Below are positions 1,031 to 37,382 of a stretch of 37,674 nucleotides of DNA, in pieces. The translations under genes and the position numbers were made by a program. The notes beneath the pieces are model-generated. The model was not told the DNA's origin and ran no database searches. It worked only from the letters and a program-made list of their open reading frames with translations. The stretch is from Gemmatimonadaceae bacterium (GTDB lineage: Bacteria; Gemmatimonadota; Gemmatimonadetes; Gemmatimonadales; Gemmatimonadaceae), in the NCBI GenBank assembly GCA_025358925.1, contig JANYHT010000038.1, positions 1 through 37,674 of the forward strand, in the 5' to 3' direction. Position 1 is the stretch's first letter. The number at the start of each line of letters is the position of its first letter.

Positions 1031-3142
1031 ATGTTCATGTACGGCTCCGCCTCCCTCTTGCCGATGCTCCCCATGTTGCGTGCTCGCTTGCGTTCCAGTG
1101 CCATGTTCACGACCAGTGTTGGTTTCGCGCTCTGCGCGACCAATGCGGCGGCACAAGTCGCGCCGAAGAAGGCGCCCGTCGTTATCCCGCAGGTCGAAGT
1201 CGTGGCCACACGCATTCCGCAGGCGCCGCATGACGTGCCCGCGTCGATCGAAGTGATTCGCGGCAGTGATTTACGCGCGCGCGGCGTCACGTCGCTCCGC
1301 GATGCACTGGCTCTCTCGGCGGGTGTCGCCATCGCGCCGGGCGGTGACAATGGGCCGGCCAGTGCAACGCCAGAGATTTGGGGCCTGCGCGAGTTCGACG
1401 CATTTCTCCTTGTCGTTGACGATATCCCGTGGGGCGGCGCGCTCAATCCCGCCGTCACGACATTGAGTTTGCGCGATATCGAACGCATCGAGATTTTGCG
1501 TGGACCGGCGCCGGTCACCTACGGTGCGACGTCGTTCGTTGGTGTGATTCACGTTGTGCATAGTGCGGCGGCCGCCACGACCACGTATCTCAATGCGACC
1601 GGTGGCACATTCGGTACCGGCAGTGTAGCGGGCGATTTTGTGCTGCCGTCCACCGGGCTCTGGAAATCGCGCGCCAGTGTCGATGTGGATCGTGAGGGTT
1701 TTCAGGATGATCGCACTTCTTTCGCGCGCGGCCATGCGTTGTTGCGCACCGCGAAGATGGAAGACCACGCGAAGACGTGGCTGACGGCCGACGTGAACAT
1801 CCTGCGACAGGACCCCGCCAGCCCGCACCCGCGCGAGGGCAAAGCGTTGTCATCGCAGACACCGCTCGATGCAAACTACAATCCGAACAACGCGTATCTC
1901 GACGAAAATCGCGTCGTGGTTGCCGCGGGTTTTGAACGCTCCGTGTTGAGCGGAACGACATGGGGAACCACCGCGTCGTACACGTATTCTGGTCGCAATC
2001 TCTTTCGCGGATTTCTCACAGATATTTCGAATAGCGCCAACAATGCTTCGGGGTTCAAGGAAAACATTACAGAAAATCACTTGTACGCCGACTCGCATCT
2101 CATCTGGCCCGAATATGCGCACGTGCGCTTCATGGCCGGTGCGGACATCCTCACTGCCAGCGGTGAGGCGAAGGGCGCGACATTTACGTATACAGCGTCG
2201 CTCAATGGCATCGCTGCGCCAAACGTGACCGAGCCCACAGTGTTGAACAAAGATGCGGGCAATAGTCGCGTGTTTGTGGGCGCGTATGGTTCGGCCGAAT
2301 GGCGCCCGACCACGCGACTTAACGTGAGCGGTGGTTTGCGGCTCAACGCAACGAACGAATCACGCGGTGAAGGAGCAAGCGTCTCGCATACGAAGCCGAG
2401 TGGCAGCGTGGGCATCATGTACGGATTGTGGGAGGACAGCGCGAATCACGTACGCGTGTTCGCGAATTATCGCGACACGTTCAAGCCGGCCGCATTCGAT
2501 TTCAGTCTTGCGGAAAACGAAGGGGTGCTCAATCCGGAAATGTCGCGCAGTTACGAAGGTGGCGTGAAGGCGCGTACAATGGACGGCCGTGTGGACCTCG
2601 AAGTCAGTGCATTTCACATGGATTTTGAAAATCTCGTCACGTCGACAGTGGTGAATAATCTGCCAGCGCTCATCAATGCGGGATCCACACGCTTCCAAGG
2701 TGTGGAATTCGCCGCGAACGTGCAATTGCCAAACGCGGTTTTTGCGCGCGCGACTTACAGCATCCACGACGGTAAGTTTGTCGACTTCGTGCAAGCGTTT
2801 GACGGTGTGCCAACACAACTTGCCGGCAAGCGTTTCGAAATGTCGGCGAAAGCACTCGCGTCAGCTGGGCTCACGCTGTCGCCGGAACAAGGTTTTATTG
2901 CGCACGCGAGCATGAACTACACGGGGAATCGCTACCTCAACAAACGGAATTCAGCGCTAGTGCCCGCGTTTTCGACGATTGATGCCGGCGTTGGATTCCG
3001 CACGGCAATAACGGAATTTCGCGTCGATGGGCGTAACCTCGGCAACCGTCGCGACGCGGTATCAGAGAGTGAGTTTGGCGACGCGCAGTATTATCGGATG
3101 ACGGCGCGGACGGTACGAGCTGGGGTGGTTGTGAAGTACTAG
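1031..3142 (+). CDS. TonB-dependent outer-membrane receptor
   Basis: About 703 residues. An N-terminal hydrophobic signal region ends near TNAAAQ, followed by a TonB-box-like stretch and plug domain (VVATRIPQAPHDVPASIEVI, then DALALSAGVAIAPGG and IERIEILRGPAPVTYG, the typical plug motif). A long beta-barrel with alternating aromatic strands follows and ends in the usual C-terminal aromatic residue (VVVKY). Such receptors import siderophores, cobalamin, sugars or peptides using the TonB-ExbBD energy system; the substrate cannot be read from the sequence. The frame is open upstream to 812, but that part overlaps the ankyrin gene and is not signal-like. I prefer ATG 1031 or 1037, with 1064 and 1073 as later options. 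Its TAG stop is the first unit of a heptad repeat array. Confidence 0.9.
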   Translation: MFMYGSASLLPMLPMLRARLRSSAMFTTSVGFALCATNAAAQVAPKKAPVVIPQVEVVATRIPQAPHDVPASIEVIRGSDLRARGVTSLRDALALSAGVAIAPGGDNGPASATPEIWGLREFDAFLLVVDDIPWGGALNPAVTTLSLRDIERIEILRGPAPVTYGATSFVGVIHVVHSAAAATTTYLNATGGTFGTGSVAGDFVLPSTGLWKSRASVDVDREGFQDDRTSFARGHALLRTAKMEDHAKTWLTADVNILRQDPASPHPREGKALSSQTPLDANYNPNNAYLDENRVVVAAGFERSVLSGTTWGTTASYTYSGRNLFRGFLTDISNSANNASGFKENITENHLYADSHLIWPEYAHVRFMAGADILTASGEAKGATFTYTASLNGIAAPNVTEPTVLNKDAGNSRVFVGAYGSAEWRPTTRLNVSGGLRLNATNESRGEGASVSHTKPSGSVGIMYGLWEDSANHVRVFANYRDTFKPAAFDFSLAENEGVLNPEMSRSYEGGVKARTMDGRVDLEVSAFHMDFENLVTSTVVNNLPALINAGSTRFQGVEFAANVQLPNAVFARATYSIHDGKFVDFVQAFDGVPTQLAGKRFEMSAKALASAGLTLSPEQGFIAHASMNYTGNRYLNKRNSALVPAFSTIDAGVGFRTAITEFRVDGRNLGNRRDAVSESEFGDAQYYRMTARTVRAGVVVKY

Positions 3143-3191
3143 GGATTAGGGATTAGGGAGAACGGCAATCATTCCCTATTCCTAATCCCTA
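3140..3191. repeat. Paired TAG-heptad arrays forming a convergent hairpin
   Basis: On the plus strand the receptor's TAG stop starts three units of TAGGGAT/TAGGGAG (3140-3160). After an 11-base spacer the opposite strand carries TAGGGAT, TAGGAA, TAGGGAA (3172-3191), starting at the TAG stop of the converging four-helix gene. The first 11 bases of the arms match perfectly and the rest nearly so, so RNA from either side can fold into a stem of about 20 bp. A bidirectional transcription terminator is a reasonable inferred role, although there is no U-run. Confidence 0.75.
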
Positions 3192-3569
3192 CTCCCTGAG
3201 ACTTGCGTGCAATCGATTCAGCATACGAGCGACTTGAGCCGCGAGATCCATCGCGATGGCGAGGTCAGACGGCATAGTGTGTCGTAAACGTTCGGCAATT
3301 AAAAGCTGCGTTTCGATCTCTGCGATTGACCCACGCGCGATTGCGATGAAATGCCGATATTCTCGCCGACTATGACGCATGTTCCCTTCTGCAATGTTGC
3401 TTGCCACAGACACTGACGCACGACGGAGCTGCCTTGTTAACCCAAACCGTTCGTCGACGGGAAACCGACGCGTGACCGCGTAGACTTCGACGACCAGCGT
3501 GACGGCCATTTGCCACACGTTGAGATCGCGAAAACTTCGAACGTTGGAAGCACCTTCCGGTTCAGTCAT
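3189..3569 (-). CDS. Four-helix-bundle protein (S23 / 23S rRNA intervening-sequence family)
   Basis: 126 residues with the full family pattern: SFRDLNVWQMAVTLVVEVY near the N-terminus, FPVDERFGLTRQLRRASVSV in the middle, the signature SNIAEGNMRHSRREYRHF, then IARGSIAEIETQLLIAERL. Members are homopentameric four-helix bundles, often encoded inside 23S rRNA intervening sequences or as solitary genes. Their role is unknown and no catalytic residues are recognised. Here the gene stands alone, with TAG-heptad arrays on both sides: its own stop lies in the 3172-3191 array and another array lies about 48 bases upstream of its start. The last codons (LRE, stop) are part of the repeat. Confidence 0.9.
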   Translation of the reverse strand: MTEPEGASNVRSFRDLNVWQMAVTLVVEVYAVTRRFPVDERFGLTRQLRRASVSVASNIAEGNMRHSRREYRHFIAIARGSIAEIETQLLIAERLRHTMPSDLAIAMDLAAQVARMLNRLHASLRE

Positions 3570-3616: not shown

Positions 3617-3642
3617 ACTCCTAACCCCTAACCCCTAACCCC
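3617..3642 (-). repeat. TAG-heptad array at the histidine-kinase stop
   Basis: Read on the minus strand, this is AGGGGT, then TAGGGGT twice, then TAGGAGT. The kinase stop TAG (3635-3637) is one of the units, and the preceding codons for RG already belong to the repeat. There is a single arm only, with no inverted partner nearby, so it is not an obvious hairpin. Confidence 0.75.
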
Positions 3643-5005
3643 TCATCCCCAGCCTCAGCCGAAACTCCGTCCGCCCTAAACGCGACTCCACAATGTCCAA
3701 CTGTCCTCCATGCAGTTCGGCGATACGCCGCGCGATGGCCAATCCAAGACCCGCACCGCTGGTTGTACTGCTTTCCGAACGTGAACGCGCGCTGTCGACG
3801 CGGTAGAATCTTTCAAAAACACGTTCGTGATCCTCTGTTGGAATGCCCGGACCTGCGTCCACCACACTGATCTCGTAATGCGCAGCCGCACGCGCCATGA
3901 CGACACCGACGGTGCCACCCTTCGGTGAATACCTGATGGCATTGTCGAGGAGGTTGAGCAGCAAACGTCCCAACAGATCCACATCGCCATGAAACGGCGC
4001 CTCCACCACGTCCTGCACGTGAATCACCACCGCGCGTTGGTCCGCGATAGAGCGCACGCCGCGTGCCGCATTGTGTACGAGTTCTTCGAGATAGAGTGCT
4101 TCGGGGCGCGCAATCAGGTGCCCGGCGTCCGCGCGTGAAAGTAAAAACAGATCATCCACAATCCGCGTGAGACGTCGGGCCGCATCGTGCATGATCGTCA
4201 CAGATCCGCGGTATTCACTCTCACTGCGATGCGCCCGCGACAGCGTAATATCCGCTTCAGTACGCACGATTGCCGTTGGCGTACGGAGTTCGTGCGAGGC
4301 GTCCGACACGAATTGTCGTTGTTGCGCAAAGGCGTGCTCGAGCCGATCCAGCAAACTATTGACCACTCGTGCGAGACGTACTAATTCGTCGCCACCTTGC
4401 ACGGGAATTCGTTCGTCGAGATTTGCCGCACTAATCCGCGCGGCATGCGCCGCCATCGACGCGACAGGCGCAAGACTCCGCTTCGCCAGCATGTAGCCGC
4501 CTAACGCCGCCGAAAAAACGAAGAGGGGAATAGCCACGAGAAACATCTGGCGAATACGTTCCAGCACAGCATCGATGTCGCGTCGTGCATACGCACCGCG
4601 CAGTACAAATCGCTGCCCCTCAATCACGAACGGGCGATCAAGCGTGCGTCGCGCCACGCCCGTGTCGAGCGACACCGTGGCATTGCGCGCCACCGTTTGT
4701 CCGCTCGCGTCGAGTATGACAATCTGCAAATCGCGAAAGTGTACTTCGTCAACAGTACTGCGCATCGCCTGCACGACCGACATCGTGGATCGTCGTTCGG
4801 CGACCAACTCACGCGAAAACGCGCTGAGTGCGTCACTTATGAAACGATCCGTTCGATTTTCCAGCGTACGCGCGACCACCACGTAGCACGCGACCGCGAA
4901 CAATATGAGTGGGAGCAACAGCAGCACACTGTACGCGAGTGTGAGACGTGATCGCAGCGACGATGGCCACTGCAACATCGGGCTACGGTACGCGCCGCGT
5001 GACAC
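3635..5005 (-). CDS. Sensor histidine kinase (HAMP, HisKA, HATPase_c)
   Basis: 456 residues from a GTG start. TM1 spans about 21-45 and TM2 about 154-174, with a periplasmic sensor of roughly 110 residues between them. HAMP follows (about 175-225), then HisKA with phospho-acceptor H238 in DASHELRTP. The ATP-binding domain has an N box (LLNLLDNAIRYSP), a G1 box (DAGPGIP) and a G2 box (GAGLGLAIAR). It autophosphorylates and passes the phosphate to the regulator encoded just upstream, whose end it overlaps by 23 bases. An alternative ATG at 4978, four bases past the regulator stop, would remove the overlap. The architecture resembles BaeS/CusS-type kinases; the stimulus is unknown. The 3' end runs into a TAG-heptad array. 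Confidence 0.93.
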   Translation of the reverse strand: MSRGAYRSPMLQWPSSLRSRLTLAYSVLLLLPLILFAVACYVVVARTLENRTDRFISDALSAFSRELVAERRSTMSVVQAMRSTVDEVHFRDLQIVILDASGQTVARNATVSLDTGVARRTLDRPFVIEGQRFVLRGAYARRDIDAVLERIRQMFLVAIPLFVFSAALGGYMLAKRSLAPVASMAAHAARISAANLDERIPVQGGDELVRLARVVNSLLDRLEHAFAQQRQFVSDASHELRTPTAIVRTEADITLSRAHRSESEYRGSVTIMHDAARRLTRIVDDLFLLSRADAGHLIARPEALYLEELVHNAARGVRSIADQRAVVIHVQDVVEAPFHGDVDLLGRLLLNLLDNAIRYSPKGGTVGVVMARAAAHYEISVVDAGPGIPTEDHERVFERFYRVDSARSRSESSTTSGAGLGLAIARRIAELHGGQLDIVESRLGRTEFRLRLGMRG

Positions 5006-27856: not shown

Positions 27857-28003
27857 AACTAAGGAAATCGCTGGTATTAACACTTTATAAGCGCAATTAT
27901 CTTAGTTTTTGATTGCTAGCGTCGTCACACCGATGCAGAAGCGACTGTGCGTATAACTAAGATATTTGTCTGTATAATATATTTATGATGGCAAAAATCT
28001 TAG
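27857..28003 (+). promoter_or_regulatory. Repeated CTTAG/CTAAG operator-like sites upstream of the AbiEi-HipA fusion
   Basis: Four related sites lie in this AT-rich stretch: AACTAAG (27857-27863), TATCTTAGTT (27898-27907), AACTAAGATA (27955-27964) and ATCTTAG (27997-28003). The second and third are perfect 10-base reverse complements of each other, 47 bases apart. The third lies just upstream of the -10 hexamer, inside the promoter spacer, where a bound protein would block polymerase. This fits autoregulation by a toxin-antitoxin system (AbiEi and HipB antitoxins bind promoter inverted repeats). Confidence 0.6.
27973..27978 (+). promoter_or_regulatory. Consensus -10 box; transcript likely leaderless
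   Basis: TATAAT is an exact consensus -10, with only a weak -35 (GTGCGT) 17 bases upstream. A start site 6-9 bases downstream falls at 27984-27987, on the first ATG of the fusion gene (27985), so the mRNA would have almost no leader. No Shine-Dalgarno precedes that ATG. Confidence 0.6.
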
Positions 28004-30009
28004 AATATGGTAAGTTTAAGAATATGATATTTATCGCCGACAACCCGCGATCCGCGAATGCCTTGTACGCGTCGACGCACGCTGGGGCGACAAAACGCCT
28101 CGCGCACGGCATCTATACCGACGACTTCATAACCGATCCAGCCGACATCATCCGCGCCAATCTGCTGGCGATTATCGCTCGATTGCTTCCGACCTGCTAT
28201 TTGTCGTATAGCACCGCAGCCGTGCTGGACGCGGTTCCAATGCGCGGCGCTGCACCAAACGACGACGCTATTGTCTTCGCCTCAGACCGAAGCGCGACTC
28301 GACGCACCCTGCGGCTGCCAGGCGTCAAGATCGTCCGCTTGGCCGCGTTGCCGTCCGCCGAAACCGATGTGATGGACGCGCCGACACGCGTTGCGTCCGC
28401 CCTTCGCGACCCGCCAACGGTTGCGCGCATACGGGTTTCGGGTCGACTACAGAATGTCCTCGAGTGTTTGTCGAAAGTGCGCCTACATCCCGAAGCAACA
28501 CTCCCAGACTACCACGTGCGCGAGTTGATAGCTGCGTTAGGGGCGGCGGACCGAGAGCGCGCAGAAGATTTCGCGCAACGCACCGATATGATGGTCGAAT
28601 TCCGCCGCTTTCGTGCGCTCGTTCGAAGTACCTCCGACATCGCCACGGTACGACTTCGCTCGACGGAAACGTTTGACGTGCACTTTTACGACTGGCGCGT
28701 TGGACGCCTCACGGCGCTCAGCAACGAAGAGTTCGCGTTCGTGTACGACGACACGTGGATGTTTCCGTTGAGCCGACAGCTCCCAGTCCACAAGAATGCG
28801 AGTGGTTCGCGCGAAGTCTATCGTAAGCGCGGGATGCCGACATTTTTTGAGAATTTTCTCCCAGAAGGTTGGACGCGAAACTGGTTGGCGCGCACGCATC
28901 ATCTCGATACTGATGATGAGCTTGGCCTCCTCACTACGACGCGCAAATATCTTTCCAACGTGACGCTGCGTCCACTCGGCATTCCGCGTAACGAGTTCCG
29001 TTTCGATACGCTAACGGTTCGACTCGGCGACCTCGCTGAGCCAGCCGCACGCAACAGTGATCTATTGGCCGTCCGCAACATGATTGACGAGACGATCGAC
29101 ACAAGCGCGCTGTGGCTCGCCATGCGCGATCGCGGTGGCGTCCGTATTTCTGGAGTGCAGCCCAAGTTGCCAGTTTCGTTGACGGTCGGTGCGCATGCAG
29201 GCGCGACGCCACGACTCGGCCTCGGAGATTTGCGACATCCCTGCTCCCACATTCTCAAATTCCAATCTCGCGAGTATCCACAATTCGTCGAGAATGAGTG
29301 GGCGACGATGGAACTGGCACACCGTGTGGGACTCGATGTACCAGCAGTTCGCATGGTCGATCTACGGCGCAAGCGTACGGATGCTCCCACGCGTGCGTTA
29401 CTCGTCGAACGATTCGACATTCCAGGCACCAACGCGCTGGCAATCGGCGGTGCTGATCTCCCGCTGATGTGGCATGAAGATGCGTGTTCGCTGCTCGGAC
29501 GCAAACGACAGGAGAAGTATGACGTGTCCATTGAAGATGTGGCCGACGCGTTGCAAATGGCCGGGCTAGTGGTTGACGACATGTGGAAATTCTTGTCCCA
29601 TGTGGTGTTTGCATGGATCACGGGCAATGGGGATCTACATGCAAAGAACTTCTCGGTCGCGCGCATTTTTGCGGCGAGCGCGACGGGAGGAGCCCCGTCC
29701 GTGCAGCACGTCTCGTACACGCCGCTCTATGACTTGCTCAACACGGGCTTGGCGATCACTGAAGATGCGTTCGCGTTGCGATTAAACGGAAAGTCATCAC
29801 GCATTGCTATGAAAGATTTTGAACGGCTCGCAACCCGGTGGAACGGCGCAGTTGATGAAACACAGGCGCTCGTACACCGTCTTGCAAGTGCCGTGCATGA
29901 GCAACTCAACGACGTCATCGCTCACTCACTGCTCGAACCGACACGCGCTGGACAGTACCGCACGATCGTTTCCGCGCGACTCGCCGGATTGGATCGACGT
30001 CGTCGTTAA
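27985..30009 (+). CDS. AbiEi-like antitoxin region fused to a HipA-type kinase
   Basis: 674 residues. The first ~200 resemble AbiEi antitoxins: THAGATKRLAHGIYTDDF (end of a winged helix), DIIRANLLAIIARLLPTCYL, SYSTAAVLDAVPM, then a strand-rich part. A HipA N-subdomain follows (FDVHFYDWRVGRLTALSNEE, PLSRQLPVHK, FFENFLPEGWTRNWLA). The kinase core is complete: Ser loop RISGVQPKLPVSL (S389), ATP lysine K425 in HILKFQ, VENEWATMELAHRVGLDVP, LLVERFDI, catalytic GNGDLHAKNFS (D550, N555), metal D583 in PLYDLLNT. HipA kinases inhibit growth by phosphorylating targets such as GltX. No separate hipB or AbiEii gene is adjacent, so antitoxin and toxin may be one chain. M14 (28024) is an alternative start. 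Surrounding AT-rich DNA suggests transfer. Confidence 0.85.
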   Translation: MMAKILEYGKFKNMIFIADNPRSANALYASTHAGATKRLAHGIYTDDFITDPADIIRANLLAIIARLLPTCYLSYSTAAVLDAVPMRGAAPNDDAIVFASDRSATRRTLRLPGVKIVRLAALPSAETDVMDAPTRVASALRDPPTVARIRVSGRLQNVLECLSKVRLHPEATLPDYHVRELIAALGAADRERAEDFAQRTDMMVEFRRFRALVRSTSDIATVRLRSTETFDVHFYDWRVGRLTALSNEEFAFVYDDTWMFPLSRQLPVHKNASGSREVYRKRGMPTFFENFLPEGWTRNWLARTHHLDTDDELGLLTTTRKYLSNVTLRPLGIPRNEFRFDTLTVRLGDLAEPAARNSDLLAVRNMIDETIDTSALWLAMRDRGGVRISGVQPKLPVSLTVGAHAGATPRLGLGDLRHPCSHILKFQSREYPQFVENEWATMELAHRVGLDVPAVRMVDLRRKRTDAPTRALLVERFDIPGTNALAIGGADLPLMWHEDACSLLGRKRQEKYDVSIEDVADALQMAGLVVDDMWKFLSHVVFAWITGNGDLHAKNFSVARIFAASATGGAPSVQHVSYTPLYDLLNTGLAITEDAFALRLNGKSSRIAMKDFERLATRWNGAVDETQALVHRLASAVHEQLNDVIAHSLLEPTRAGQYRTIVSARLAGLDRRRR

Positions 30010-32211: not shown

Positions 32212-34428
32212 ATGATGCTGACCTGCCTGCACGCTGTGCGTACGACGCGCGTTGTTGCGCTCTTGATGTCGATCGGGGTGCTGTTCGCGCCGAGTGTGTC
32301 GAGTGCGACCCCCGCTACCGATCTTGCGCGTTGGAAGGTGCAGGCGAGTCGCGTCACGATCATTCGAGATACGTGGGGTGTACCGCACATCTTCGGTAAG
32401 AGTGACGCCGACGCCGTTTTCGGGTTGGTGTATGCGCAATCCGAAGACGATTTCAATCGCGTGGAGATGAACTACATCAACGCGAGTGGACGCTTGGCCG
32501 AGGTGGAAGGTGAGGCGGAGATCTATCGTGATTTGCGGATGAAGTTGTTTATCAATCCGGCCGACATGAAGGTCAAGTATGCGGCAAGTCCGGTGTGGCT
32601 CAAGCAGTTGATGAACGCGTTTGCGGATGGGCTCAACTACTATTTGGCGACACATCCCAACGTAAAGCCGAAGTTGATTACGCATTTCGAGCCGTGGATG
32701 GCATTGACGTTCAGTGAAGGCAGCATTGGTGGTGACATCGAGTCGGTGAATTTGCGCGGCCTGGAGCAAGTGTATGGCAAGAAGCCGATGACAGACACGC
32801 CAGACGACGCCGACGTGGATGCGCTCCCTGCTGAACCGAAGGGGTCAAACGGTTTTGCGATCGCGCCGGCGAATACGCTGTCGAAACATTCGATTCTTCT
32901 GCTCAACCCGCACACGTCGTTCTATTTTCGCCCCGAAGTGCAGGTGCACAGCGAAGAGGGCTTGAACGCGTATGGCGCGGTGACGTGGGGCCAGTTCTTT
33001 GTGTATCAAGGATTCAATGATCGCTTGGGATGGATGCATACGTCGGGCGGTGGCGATGTCATCGACGAGTACATCGAAACGGTCACTGAAAAAAACGGGG
33101 TATTCAGCTATAAGTACGGCGCCGAACAACGGCTGTTCAAAACGGTGAAGATCACGTTGCCGTATAAGCAGGGCGGTACGATGGCGAAGAAAGAGATGAC
33201 GGTGTATTACAGCGTGCATGGACCGGTCGTGCGATCAATGAACGGAAAGTGGATTACGGTCAAGATGATGAACGATCCATTGCACGCCTTGCAACAGTCA
33301 TGGCTGCGAACGAAAGCTCGCAACTACGCGTCATTTTTGAAAATTATGGATTTGCGTACGAATTCGTCCAACAACACGGTCTATGCGGATGCAGACGGCA
33401 ACATCGCGTATTTCCACGGCAATTTTATTCCAAAGCGCGACACATCGTTTGATTGGACGAAGCCGGTGGACGGCAGCAATCCGAAAACCGAATGGCAAGG
33501 ACTGCATGCGGTAAGCGAAACGATTACGCTGTTCAATCCGAAGAGTGGTTGGCTGTACAACACGAACAATTGGCCGTTCACCTCGGCGGGCGCGTATAGC
33601 CCCAAGGCCAAGGACTATCCGAAGTACATGGTGTCGAACCCCGAAAATGCGCGTGGCTTGCATGCGGTGCGCGTGCTGAACAACAAGCACGATTTTACAA
33701 TCGACGGGGTCATTGCGGCCGCGAACGACACGTATCTGACCGCGTTTGAATCGCTAATTCCGGCGCTGCTTAAATCGTATGATACAACGCCCAATAGCGA
33801 TCCGAATAAGTCGGCGTTGGCGGAGCAGATTGCGTCGTTGCGATCGTGGGACCTGCGGTACTCGGTGACATCAATCCCCACGTCGCTCGCGATTTTCTGG
33901 GGCCAAGACCTGATGGCGCGCAGTGGTGCTGCGGCGCGCGCGAAAGGCGTCTCGGTTGACGAATACATGGAGCAGTACGCGACGGCGAAAGAACGGCTTG
34001 ATGCGTTGGCGCGTGCGTCGGCGAAACTCACAACCGATTTTGGTTCGTGGAAAACAGCATGGGGGGACATCAACCGATTTCAACGGTTGACGGGCGACAT
34101 CGTGCAGCCATTTGATGACAACAAGCCAAGCATTCCTGTTGCCTTTCCATCATCGACATGGGGTTCATTGGCGGCGTTTGGTATGACAACACGGGCAAAC
34201 ACCAAACACATTTATGGTGATCGTGGCAACAGTTTTATCGCCGTCGTTGATTTTGGCCCGCGACTGACAGCGAAGAGTTTGCTGGCGGGTGGTGAGAGCG
34301 GCGACCCGGCGTCAAAGCATTTCAATGATCAGGCGGAGATGTATTCGAAGAGCCAGTTCAAGGATGTGTGGTTTTATCGCGCGGACGTGGAGCAGCACGC
34401 GGAGCGCACGTACAAACCTGGGGAATAG
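32212..34428 (+). CDS. Penicillin acylase family Ntn-hydrolase
   Basis: 738 residues from ATG 32212, with a signal peptide (TTRVVALLMSIGVLFAPSVS, cleavage near SSATPA). The alpha region has VTIIRDTWGVPHIFGKSDADAVFGLVYAQSEDDF. The autoproteolytic site is in EPKGSNGFAIAPANT, making S212 the new N-terminal nucleophile of the beta chain. LLLNPHTSFYFRPE and the later NTVYADADGNIAYFHGN and W-rich beta blocks are typical. Family members hydrolyse acyl amides, including beta-lactams and acyl-homoserine lactones. The upstream open frame overlaps osmC and is rejected. Its TAG stop starts a heptad array. Confidence 0.94.
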   Translation: MMLTCLHAVRTTRVVALLMSIGVLFAPSVSSATPATDLARWKVQASRVTIIRDTWGVPHIFGKSDADAVFGLVYAQSEDDFNRVEMNYINASGRLAEVEGEAEIYRDLRMKLFINPADMKVKYAASPVWLKQLMNAFADGLNYYLATHPNVKPKLITHFEPWMALTFSEGSIGGDIESVNLRGLEQVYGKKPMTDTPDDADVDALPAEPKGSNGFAIAPANTLSKHSILLLNPHTSFYFRPEVQVHSEEGLNAYGAVTWGQFFVYQGFNDRLGWMHTSGGGDVIDEYIETVTEKNGVFSYKYGAEQRLFKTVKITLPYKQGGTMAKKEMTVYYSVHGPVVRSMNGKWITVKMMNDPLHALQQSWLRTKARNYASFLKIMDLRTNSSNNTVYADADGNIAYFHGNFIPKRDTSFDWTKPVDGSNPKTEWQGLHAVSETITLFNPKSGWLYNTNNWPFTSAGAYSPKAKDYPKYMVSNPENARGLHAVRVLNNKHDFTIDGVIAAANDTYLTAFESLIPALLKSYDTTPNSDPNKSALAEQIASLRSWDLRYSVTSIPTSLAIFWGQDLMARSGAAARAKGVSVDEYMEQYATAKERLDALARASAKLTTDFGSWKTAWGDINRFQRLTGDIVQPFDDNKPSIPVAFPSSTWGSLAAFGMTTRANTKHIYGDRGNSFIAVVDFGPRLTAKSLLAGGESGDPASKHFNDQAEMYSKSQFKDVWFYRADVEQHAERTYKPGE

Positions 34429-34503
34429 GAGTTAGCGGTTAGGGGTTAGGCGGCGCACGCTTTGTCGTTCCTAATCCCTAACCCCTATTCCCTCTTCCCT
34501 AAT
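34426..34503. repeat. Paired TAG-heptad arrays after the penicillin acylase
   Basis: On the plus strand the acylase TAG stop begins TAGGAGT, TAGCGGT, TAGGGGT, TAGG (34426-34450). After a spacer of about 18 bases the minus strand carries degenerate TAGGGAA, AGGGAA, TAGGGGT, TAGGGAT, TAGG units (34469-34503). The arms form a long imperfect hairpin. No gene ends at the minus-strand arm, which is unusual for this repeat family. Confidence 0.7.
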
Positions 34504-34614: not shown

Positions 34615-35028
34615 ATGAAAGTCGCCCACGCGCTACTTGTTGCCGTTACGATGGCCTTTCCGATCGCGCTCCTTCACGCGCATCCGGCATCATCGCCCTG
34701 TGGCGAGCATGCGTCGTCCGCGCGGAGCCTGCGAATCGATGGCGAAGTGAGCGACATGTACGTCAAAGGCGACTCACTCGAAGTCGTGTTTTGCAACACG
34801 GGTCGCTTTCAAACAAGTATCGTGGGTGAGATACAGGTACGTCTCGTCGGCGACTCCGTCGTGACAGCCCTGCCAATCACCTCGGCATCCGTAAAGTCCG
34901 GCGAGCAGCGGACAATGCGCATCGCGATGCCCAAGTTAGCCAAAGGCGCGTATGTGCTATTTGTCGTGGTGGACTTTGGTGGCGCGCAACTCACCGCGGC
35001 GAAGGCAGAGCTGGAGATTAGGGATTAG
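34615..35028 (+). CDS. Small secreted protein of unknown function
   Basis: 137 residues from ATG 34615 (MKVAHALLVAVTMAFPIALL), with a signal peptide ending near HAHPAS. The mature part looks like one beta-sandwich: LRIDGEVSDMYVKGDSLEVVF, TSIVGEIQVRLVGDSVV, RTMRIAMPKLAKGAYVLFVVV. Two cysteines (CGEH and VFCNT) could form a disulfide. No family is recognised. The last codons (IRD) and the TAG stop are heptad-repeat units. An alternative ATG is at 34603. Confidence 0.7.
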   Translation: MKVAHALLVAVTMAFPIALLHAHPASSPCGEHASSARSLRIDGEVSDMYVKGDSLEVVFCNTGRFQTSIVGEIQVRLVGDSVVTALPITSASVKSGEQRTMRIAMPKLAKGAYVLFVVVDFGGAQLTAAKAELEIRD

Positions 35029-35046
35029 GGATTGGGGATTAGGGAA
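35018..35046 (+). repeat. TAG-heptad array at a stop codon
   Basis: Four units, TTAGGGAT, TAGGGAT, TGGGGAT and TAGGGAA, with the small secreted protein's stop (35026-35028) as the second unit. Single arm, no nearby inverted partner. Confidence 0.75.
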
Positions 35047-35126: not shown

Positions 35127-35636
35127 ATGACAACGACTGACGCTCCTGTTCCCCAAATAGCCATTCTCGCGGGCGGCTGCTTTTGGGGTGTTGAAGAAAT
35201 TTTGCGCGCCGTGCCAGGTATTCTCGAGACCGACGTGGGTTATACGGGCGGTTGGCTCGAAAATCCCACCTATCACGATACGCATGACAGCAAGTCGGGC
35301 CATGCCGAAGCCATTCGCATCACGTTCGATCCCGCGGTGCTTACGTACGAGACGTTGCTCGAGCAGTGGTTCTTTAAGTTGCACGATCCCACCACACTCA
35401 ATCGCCAAGGCAACGATATCGGCACGCAATATCGCTCGGCGATTTTCTATGTATCGCCAGAGCAGCAAGCCACAGCGATTGCAGTGAAAGCACGCGTTGA
35501 AGCGTCTGGCAAATGGAAAAAACCGATCACCACCGAAATCACCGCTGCCACCACGTGGTATTCAGCGGAAAAATATCACCAAGACTATTTACAGAAAAAC
35601 GTTGGCGGATATTCATGCCATTTTCTTAGGGACTAG
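35127..35636 (+). CDS. msrA: Peptide-methionine (S)-S-oxide reductase
   Basis: 169 residues. The catalytic motif GGCFWG places C18 as the nucleophile. VGYTGGWLENPTYHD, GHAEAIRITFDP, WFFKLHDPTTLNRQGNDIGTQYRSAI and a C-terminal YHQDYLQKNVGGYSCHFLRD with a resolving Cys are all as in MsrA. It repairs S-methionine sulfoxide in oxidised proteins. ATG 35127 is preferred over TTG 35115. A TACAAT (35079-35084) could be its -10. The final codons (LRD) and TAG stop are units of the following heptad array. Confidence 0.96.
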   Translation: MTTTDAPVPQIAILAGGCFWGVEEILRAVPGILETDVGYTGGWLENPTYHDTHDSKSGHAEAIRITFDPAVLTYETLLEQWFFKLHDPTTLNRQGNDIGTQYRSAIFYVSPEQQATAIAVKARVEASGKWKKPITTEITAATTWYSAEKYHQDYLQKNVGGYSCHFLRD

Positions 35637-35660
35637 GGGTTAGGGGTTAGGGATTAGGAA
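35626..35660 (+). repeat. TAG-heptad array at the msrA stop (left arm)
   Basis: Units TTAGGGAC, TAGGGGT, TAGGGGT, TAGGGAT, TAGGAA include the msrA stop 35634-35636. The matching inverted arm is 1.7 kb away at 37343-37382, on the far side of the inserted element. Confidence 0.75.
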
Positions 35661-35670
35661 GGTCAAGCCG

Positions 35671-35703
35671 GGGTGTGTCCCGAAGTCAGTTGAAATTCGG
35701 GTG
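35671..35703 (+). repeat. Left 33-bp terminal inverted repeat
   Basis: Begins GGGTGTGTCCCGAAGTCAG and ends ATTCGGGTG. It contains an internal CCCGAA...TTCGGG dyad. The exact reverse complement occurs at 37294-37326. After one extra base, GTGCC is also shared. Confidence 0.9.
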
Positions 35704-35722
35704 AGTGCCGGAGAAGCGCTGC

Positions 35723-35988
35723 TCAGGCAGCGACGGCGGTGGTGGGGAGTTTGGTGCTCAACGCGGTTTGCAGCAAGGCCATATGCTTCACGCCACGCAC
35801 GCGTCGAAAGTTGTGCTCGATCTGGAGCAGCGTCGCGGCGACCCAGCGCTGCTTCTGGTTGCTGTTCCGCCAATGATCCACGCGTTGCGTCTTGCGTTCG
35901 ATTTGCGCCATCACGCTTTCGATCAGGTTGGTCGTGTTGAGACTGCGGCGCAGGTCCTCAGGCACGCCGAGGCGATGCAGCGTGAGTT
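35723..35988 (-). pseudogene. IS256/Mutator-family transposase, C-terminal remnant
   Basis: About 88 codons remain: LTLHRLGVPEDLRRSLNTTN, then LIESVMAQIERKTQRV, WRNSNQKQRWVAATLLQIE, FRRVRGVKHMALLQTAL. This is the conserved end of IS256-type transposases. Similarity stops near 35988 and the catalytic DD part is missing, so it cannot be active alone. Confidence 0.85.
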
Positions 35989-36225
35989 TACCTGTAACCA
36001 GATCTCAATCGCGATCTACTACCTCACAGTAGAGTATCGCAGTTTGCAGAGAGATATAGAGGCTAAAGAAGAATCGGTGCTAAATTGTGCAAGTCGTAGT
36101 TTCGATTGTGGCGGTGGTGGCATGGTCTTGGTTGTCATGTCGCTGGAGCTAGACTGGGACCTGATGGTTCTGGACTCGCTGGCAGGCCGCTACGCATACC
36201 AAGGCTGCTAATTAGGAAGACCACC

Positions 36226-36648
36226 ATGAGGATGAGAGCGTCCGCTTTCTTCACATCGATTGTTCTCGCCGCGTTTCCGATACGGCTGCTCGCTCAATCG
36301 CCAGTGAGAGATACATCCTTCTTTGAGTTTCGTGTTTCGGATAGCCTAACTTTTCGAGCGCATGGCGACACGGTATGGTCCATTGCAACAGGTCGCTCAA
36401 CGCGGATTGTCGATTCGGCTGGTCATATCTCAATGCATCGACTAAAGGACGGTGTCGTTGAGGATACGAGATGGATCGTGAAGGGTCTTACAGCCTATCG
36501 CACCGACAGTTCTTCTGGAGCAGCGTCGCTGCCTGCAGTAGTGTTTCAGACGTATTTCAAGCAGATCGAGTCTGCGCGAAGGTTTAATAGAATCACAAGA
36601 GGCGTTCCACCGACGGAAACTGGCAAATCGCAGTTCCTACCCGAATAA
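36226..36648 (+). CDS. Secreted protein inside the mobile element
   Basis: 140 residues from ATG 36226, with AGGA nine bases upstream. The signal peptide is MRMRASAFFTSIVLAAFPIR with cleavage after LLAQ. The mature part is beta-strand-rich: FFEFRVSDSLTFRAHGDTVW, GRSTRIVDSAGHISMHRL, EDTRWIVKGLTAYRTDSS. No family is recognised. Codon usage is less GC-biased than that of its neighbours, which suggests foreign cargo or loose constraint. A perfect 20-bp hairpin follows 19 bases after the stop. Confidence 0.6.
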   Translation: MRMRASAFFTSIVLAAFPIRLLAQSPVRDTSFFEFRVSDSLTFRAHGDTVWSIATGRSTRIVDSAGHISMHRLKDGVVEDTRWIVKGLTAYRTDSSSGAASLPAVVFQTYFKQIESARRFNRITRGVPPTETGKSQFLPE

Positions 36649-36667
36649 ACTTTGGCAGTGATGACAT

Positions 36668-36713
36668 ACGATGAACACCTCCCGCTCTATGAGCGGGAGG
36701 TGTTCATCGTTTT
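36668..36713 (+). terminator. Perfect 20-bp hairpin terminator
   Basis: The arms ACGATGAACACCTCCCGCTC (36668-36687) and its exact complement (36691-36710) enclose a TAT loop, followed by TTTT (36710-36713). It ends the preceding plus-strand gene. The stem is unusually long and perfect. Confidence 0.85.
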
Positions 36714-36714
36714 G

Positions 36715-36825
36715 CTAATGCTTCTTGTCTCTCGGCGGATTTGGATCTCGACCGTAACTATCGCTATCTCGAATCGTACCGTCCCGGCGGTGCGTGATCA
36801 CTTCGCTCAGGTTTTGTTTTGCCAT
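36715..36825 (-). CDS. Possible 36-residue hydrophilic small protein
   Basis: An ATG at 36825 opens a frame ending at TAG 36717-36715: MAKQNLSEVITHRRDGTIRD, then SDSYGRDPNPPRDKKH. It is hydrophilic and charged, with a Pro-rich tail. The stop lies just before the 20-bp hairpin in the transcribed direction. There is no good Shine-Dalgarno. Coding status is uncertain; homologues would decide it. Confidence 0.35.
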   Translation of the reverse strand: MAKQNLSEVITHRRDGTIRDSDSYGRDPNPPRDKKH

Positions 36826-37028
36826 TCGGTTGTCAGTTTAGCGCAAGTTTTCGATACGGCCACGCGTTTTTTCGACGCGTCAATAGTTGATGTGTGAATG
36901 CACGAGTAAAACGGAAATGGATCGTACGAAACCCTATCGACCGGAAGGCGGAGCTCGGTTTGCGTACCAGCGAGGTTCTCGCCCCAGCGGAACCTGTCAA
37001 CGAATTTAAGACACCAAGGGGACTGCGT

Positions 37029-37215
37029 TTATTGAATGGCGTCCTCTGAAGCGCTGAGGCGTTTGGGTGGATTGATCCACACCGCGCTCGGCAGAGGAGC
37101 GGGTGTGGGGGGACGACGGACGAAGCGCTCTGGATGGGCGATGTAGGCGGTGGTGAGGACGATCGCCCGTTGCGTCGCCGCTGCGGTGCTTGGCTGGTGC
37201 GCGGTCGAGGCTATT
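37029..37215 (-). pseudogene. IS3-family transposase, C-terminal remnant
   Basis: The minus-strand frame holds QRAIVLTTAYIAHPERFVRR and PAPLPSAVWINPP, the hallmark C-terminus of IS3-type (integrase-core) transposases, followed by a stop at 37029. Downstream, a GTGTCTTAAATTCGTTGACA block (near 36995-37014) resembles an IS3-type terminal repeat. The catalytic core is missing. Confidence 0.75.
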
Positions 37216-37293
37216 CGTACTTTTCGCATGGGTGGTGCCCTCTGTTTTGGAGCGGGAATCCTGCCAGGGATCAACGCTGCAGTATGGAGGCAC

Positions 37294-37326
37294 CACCCGA
37301 ATTTCAACTGACTTCGGGACACACCC
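37294..37326 (-). repeat. Right 33-bp terminal inverted repeat
   Basis: Exact reverse complement of 35671-35703. It partly overlaps a second, internal 10-bp inverted pair, GGGTGGTGCC at 37230-37239 and GGCACCACCC at 37289-37298. Confidence 0.9.
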
Positions 37327-37342
37327 GAAGCTGTTGCTCAGC

Positions 37343-37382
37343 CCCTAATCCCTAATCCCTATTCCCTATTCCCTATTCCCTA
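37343..37382 (-). repeat. TAG-heptad array at the metalloprotease stop (right arm)
   Basis: On the minus strand: TAGGGAA three times, TAGGGAT twice, then TAGGGGC. The first TAG (37382-37380) is the stop of the protease gene. It is the inverted counterpart of the msrA array across the inserted element. Confidence 0.8.

Follow-up and report, generated by a model that had tools for sequence, protein, structure and literature searches.

The closest described systems to the locus reported here are the insertion sequences (IS) of the IS256 family and the mobile insertion cassettes. ISCth4, a member of the IS256 family, features tips that are alike at 24 of 31 bp and has 8-bp duplications (PMC7780238). 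Mobile insertion cassettes, or transporter IS, have been described in PMC3129680. The window analyzed here is a stretch of 37,674 nucleotides from a Gemmatimonadaceae bacterium and makes up one whole contig of a 4.0 Mb assembly (72 contigs, 96% complete). It features an element at positions 35671-37326, bounded by a perfect inverted repeat, that lies between msrA on one side and an opposite-strand gene on the right flank, with 348 bp from its right end to the end of the contig. The element is probably an ordinary insertion sequence of the IS256 family that survives only as a dead, mosaic remnant and whose perfect ends arose by overwriting of one tip. It resembles IS256-family elements such as ISCth4 in its transposase family, and its intact relatives feature a single ORF, a length of about 1.4-1.5 kb, tips of about 31-33 bp and duplications of 8-9 bp; the 24/31 tip identity of ISCth4 (PMC7780238) is comparable with the 23-29/33 of these relatives. 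The window element differs in that it is without most of the transposase, has 33/33 tips of one type, has no target duplication and contains foreign filler. As in mobile insertion cassettes (PMC3129680), IS ends surround a passenger gene and no working transposase is present; however, searches revealed neither a second copy nor a target duplication nor a cognate transposase, and the interior resembles debris. Apart from the oddity of the tip conversion, the element is ordinary in kind.

The same tips bound intact elements of about 1.40 kb in sister genomes, where they are flanked by 9-bp target duplications. Six elements in one of these genomes (G338) are exactly 1,403 bp long and one more measures 1,404 bp; perfect 9-bp target duplications surround four of the copies, and the 418-aa transposase of the one G338 element inspected in detail scores 205 bits against the NCBIfam IS256 profile (cut-off 150). 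The window retains both ends of such an element. The 3' end, at 35666-35987 on the minus strand, encodes the transposase C-terminus (about codons 331-414) in an open frame and is 66-76% identical to the intact elements at the DNA level, with 60% amino acid identity over transposase residues 331-414. The relic that a first-pass annotation had described as a dead IS256 C-terminus is the same feature; at 35723-35998 (-) it matches Pfam Transposase_mut (PF00872, E=3.8e-5, profile positions 322-377 of 379) and NCBIfam IS256 (E=6.9e-10), and about 300 transposase codons are gone. The 5' end consists of the leader and approximately the first 14 transposase codons (37191-37293, minus strand, 79-83% identity to the intact elements), and the alignment with the 5' ends of the sister-genome elements extends over 37191-37327. 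The window aligns only with both ends of the intact elements, which indicates that transposase codons from about 15 to about 330 were lost. The window thus holds the IS256/Mutator-type transposase as a C-terminus alone, whereas the intact relatives exceed the family cut-off; a complete transposase with its catalytic residues is missing. Since neither transposase fragment has lost its open frame and neither tip is damaged, the codons may have been lost only recently and the ends may still work. A further relic of this element family, in the closest genome (G383, 95% amino acid identity), is a fragment of an IS256 5' end inside a short inverted repeat, GGTGCCTCAATACTCAG ... CTGAGTATTGAGGCACC (L172, G383:C248:5219-5255).

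The perfect 33-bp inverted repeat is present as annotated, at 35671-35703 and 37294-37326; none is expected in shuffled sequences, and allowing one gap extends the repeat to about 39 bp. Its tips are those of a family-type terminal inverted repeat and are common to the intact relatives. The two tips of the window are identical at 33/33 positions vs 23-29/33 in 13 relatives with two ends, and the best-preserved mobile relatives, which have perfect target duplications, feature tips identical at 25 or 28 of 33 positions. In order to assign the window tips to an end, distinct tips were sorted by side, giving 15 for the 5' end and 21 for the 3' end; 13 of the 5'-side tips were assigned by the adjoining transposase homology and 2 by a conserved inner motif. 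The left tip (IRL, plus strand) lies on the transposase-3' side and is of the 3' type in comparison with the 3' tips of the 21 relatives. The right tip (IRR, 37294-37326, minus strand) lies on the 5' side and is also of the 3' type. The window tip sequence scores +17.5 bits towards the 3' type, while true 5' tips score negative in 15 of 15 cases in a leave-one-out test, and the bases G12 and T16 of the window tip are found in 0/15 of the true 5' tips. Immediately inside the right tip the window retains the 5'-type sequence GTGCCTCCATAC. The tip score, the two diagnostic bases and the retained inner sequence together identify the right tip, as judged from its sequence, as a 5' tip that was overwritten by 3'-type tip sequence. 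Conversion or recombination between ends would account for this homogenization; alternatively, the window sequence may be the natural 5' tip of a subfamily. The perfect ends had been read as a mark of recent movement or selection. This reading is not supported, because the right tip is of the 3' type and relatives with fresh 9-bp duplications have imperfect ends, and the perfect ends point to end homogenization instead. A caution follows for the interpretation of similar loci: mobile IS256-family copies have imperfect, asymmetric tips, and a perfect inverted repeat is no sign of recent movement. If tip homogenization recurs in dying elements, it would make a small, testable point about the decay of IS ends.

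The space between the two ends is occupied by parts of different origin. The IS3 C-terminus that had been annotated as a dead relic was confirmed at about 37032-37181 (-) and has a longer relative that exceeds the NCBIfam IS3 cut-off. It is part of an IS3-family 3' end at 36987-37181 (minus strand), which features the transposase C-terminus and an intact 3' terminus. The IS3-family relatives have a common boundary at 36985-36990 with the conserved terminus GTTGACAGGTTCCG directly ahead of it, and in the window the terminus is exact at 36987. The IS256 start is fused to the IS3 end in an open frame, which a chance join would produce one time in three. The remaining 1.0 kb or so (35988-36986) is foreign filler of about 50% G+C for which searches of the family and of 395 genomes of the phylum returned only chance-level matches. 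An open frame on the plus strand at 35988-36211 has the best codon usage of the three forward frames and ends 15 nt ahead of the next ORF; it has no family match and is possibly the tail of a truncated upstream gene. These features suggest that 35988-36986 is a slice of an unrelated gene neighborhood rather than packaged cargo.

The annotated secreted-protein gene with its own terminator corresponds to an intact 140-aa ORF at 36226-36648 (+) that is followed by a hairpin. The ORF features a putative signal peptide, judged by eye, and is the best-scoring frame, with atypical codon usage. It has no Pfam or NCBIfam match, and no relatives were found in plasmids, phages, genome_contigs or viral_contigs, nor a clear one in any collection searched; candidate relatives in two members of the family (35-39% identity, E>=2e-4) were too weak to be convincing. 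The fold predicted for it without an alignment has a pLDDT of 39.8, which is too low for use. The hairpin is a perfect 20-bp stem at 36668-36710, with a predicted RNA folding energy of -39.5 kcal/mol (z=-10.6), and is probably a bidirectional terminator. It is not listed by a terminator consensus scan because the T tract 3' of the stem is short (TTTTGCT). A 36-aa ORF at 36718-36825 (-) is similar to the C-terminal portion of DUF2188 (Pfam PF09954, E=7.1e-6, profile positions 38-62); it is convergent with the orphan ORF, and the hairpin is common to both.

The element is flanked by two arms of a convergent pair of G-rich (GGGATTA)n heptamer arrays, the left arm at 35627-35658 (+) and the right arm at 37344-37382 (-). 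Without the element the loop between the arms is 31 nt, and the loops of ten other pairs inspected in the own and the closest genome are 3-53 nt. Quadruplex-forming GGGNATC heptamer arrays occur in Xanthomonas and Nostoc (PMC4692102). The window arrays are likewise intergenic and G-rich, with a 7-nt unit and often in convergent pairs; however, the unit is GGGATTA rather than GGGAATC or GGGGA(T/C)T, and the text of PMC4692102 contains no mention of GGGATTA or Gemmatimon. The literature searched contained nothing on quasipalindromes with transposons. The dispersed arrays often form convergent pairs with short loops, and the window contains them at 3142-3196, 3620-3649, 34421-34502, 35014-35043, 35627-35658 and 37344-37382. 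The own assembly features 128 near-matches to two heptamer units; the arrays are also present in the closest genome, and a genus-wide search listed array matches for these two genomes only.

No target-site duplication of 8-9 bp was found at the element, the best agreement being 5 of 7. The imperfect 7-bp pair CAAGCCG/GAAGCTG was rejected as a target duplication because the relatives have 9 bp, and an IS1272-like inverted-repeat replacement (PMC5678879) was rejected because the relatives make 9-bp target duplications. In an old copy a missing duplication is still compatible with ancestry as an IS256-family element, and the flanks, a single heptamer pair whose loop length is normal, support a simple insertion into the hairpin loop with a duplication that has since been lost. 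In the preferred reading of a decayed IS256-family element, an element of about 1.4 kb would have entered the loop of the convergent heptamer pair between msrA and the opposite-strand gene and would later have lost transposase codons from about 15 to 330. The gap would have come to be filled by the IS3-family 3' end abutting 1 kb of unrelated DNA with the orphan gene, the hairpin and the DUF2188-like mini-ORF. The 5' tip would have been overwritten by a 3'-type tip, through gene conversion between the ends, a template switch from one end to the other, or recombination with a further copy. The parts, their relatives, the 3' type of the right tip and the absence of a target duplication and of a second copy are observations, from which the order of events and the cause of the tip homogenization are inferred. 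Encoding no transposase, the remnant could move only with one supplied in trans.

There are some discrepancies between this reading and the earlier proposal that the element is a non-autonomous cargo carrier. A search of the whole own assembly for other copies of the 33-bp ends found only the known pair, no second copy of the whole element is present, and the exact 33-mer is absent from genome_contigs and viral_contigs. A 33-mer occurring only here, with flanking similarity pointing to an inversion or a local duplication, had been named as an outcome that would refute the proposal. Half of this applies: the 33-mer is unique in this genome, but sister genomes have divergent forms of it as genuine tips of IS256-family elements, and it is therefore a true IS end and no local duplication. 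The full-length IS256 element expected to share these ends exists in sister genomes with divergent tips, but no other IS256/Mutator transposase was found in the own, 96% complete assembly, where the tips also occur only here. These absences are weak evidence, because the assembly is incomplete and draft assemblies often lose repeated IS copies; an autonomous partner could be missing for this reason. In G294, ten identical 3'-type tips (L088-L092) were observed, several of them about 35-120 bp from a contig end, which indicates that multicopy IS256 elements break such assemblies. A mobile insertion cassette, in which IS256 tips move the secreted-protein gene with a cognate transposase in trans, is quite unlikely. 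In its favor, both tips are intact and identical, the ORF is uninterrupted and followed by a terminator of its own, the cargo is rare and atypical in codon usage, and related autonomous elements are present in sister genomes. IS ends do surround a passenger gene without a transposase; however, movement as a unit would be expected to leave several copies, a target duplication or empty sites, and neither these nor a cognate autonomous element was found in the incomplete own assembly. The ORF and the 1-kb middle were found nowhere else, the middle consists of debris (the IS3 3' end and the truncated upstream frame) that fits an accidental slice better than packaged cargo, and the autonomous relatives have asymmetric tips whereas those of the window are symmetric and of the 3' type. 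With its tips intact, the element could be mobilized in trans and carry cargo, but nothing found supports this. A variant in which the 5' tip of an IS256-derived cassette was converted to the 3' type, and the symmetric ends are still mobilized by a related transposase with the orphan gene aboard, is very unlikely.

Two further explanations concern the right junction. Recombination between two IS256 copies, with another copy's 3' end supplying the right tip and right flank through a join in the inner tip sequence that both share, would make the locus a rearrangement breakpoint and is unlikely, though it ranks ahead of the cassette. It accounts jointly for a right tip of the 3' type and for the absence of a target duplication, and msrA is widely separated from the right-flank gene in two complete genomes of the genus, G019 and G074. 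However, this distance is weakly informative because the order of genes near msrA is not conserved across the genus, and the flanks look like one pair of heptamer arrays whose loop is of ordinary length. Gene adjacency gave no readable empty site, as the contig of the closest genome stops short of msrA and the other genomes are non-syntenic there. An assembly artefact, in which a misjoin at similar tips produced the perfect pair of tips or the junction on the right, is the least probable of the explanations considered. IS tips are classical misjoin sites and the element lies close to the contig end; against this, the true 5' and 3' tips have about 16 contiguous bases in common, which would be too short for most assemblers to join, and the heptamer pair continues from one side of the element to the other. 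Elsewhere in the window, a HipA-like protein of 674 aa at 27985-30009 (+) matches HipA_C (E=1.4e-37) and Couple_hipA (E=1.1e-16) and features about 230 additional N-terminal residues ahead of the HipA part.
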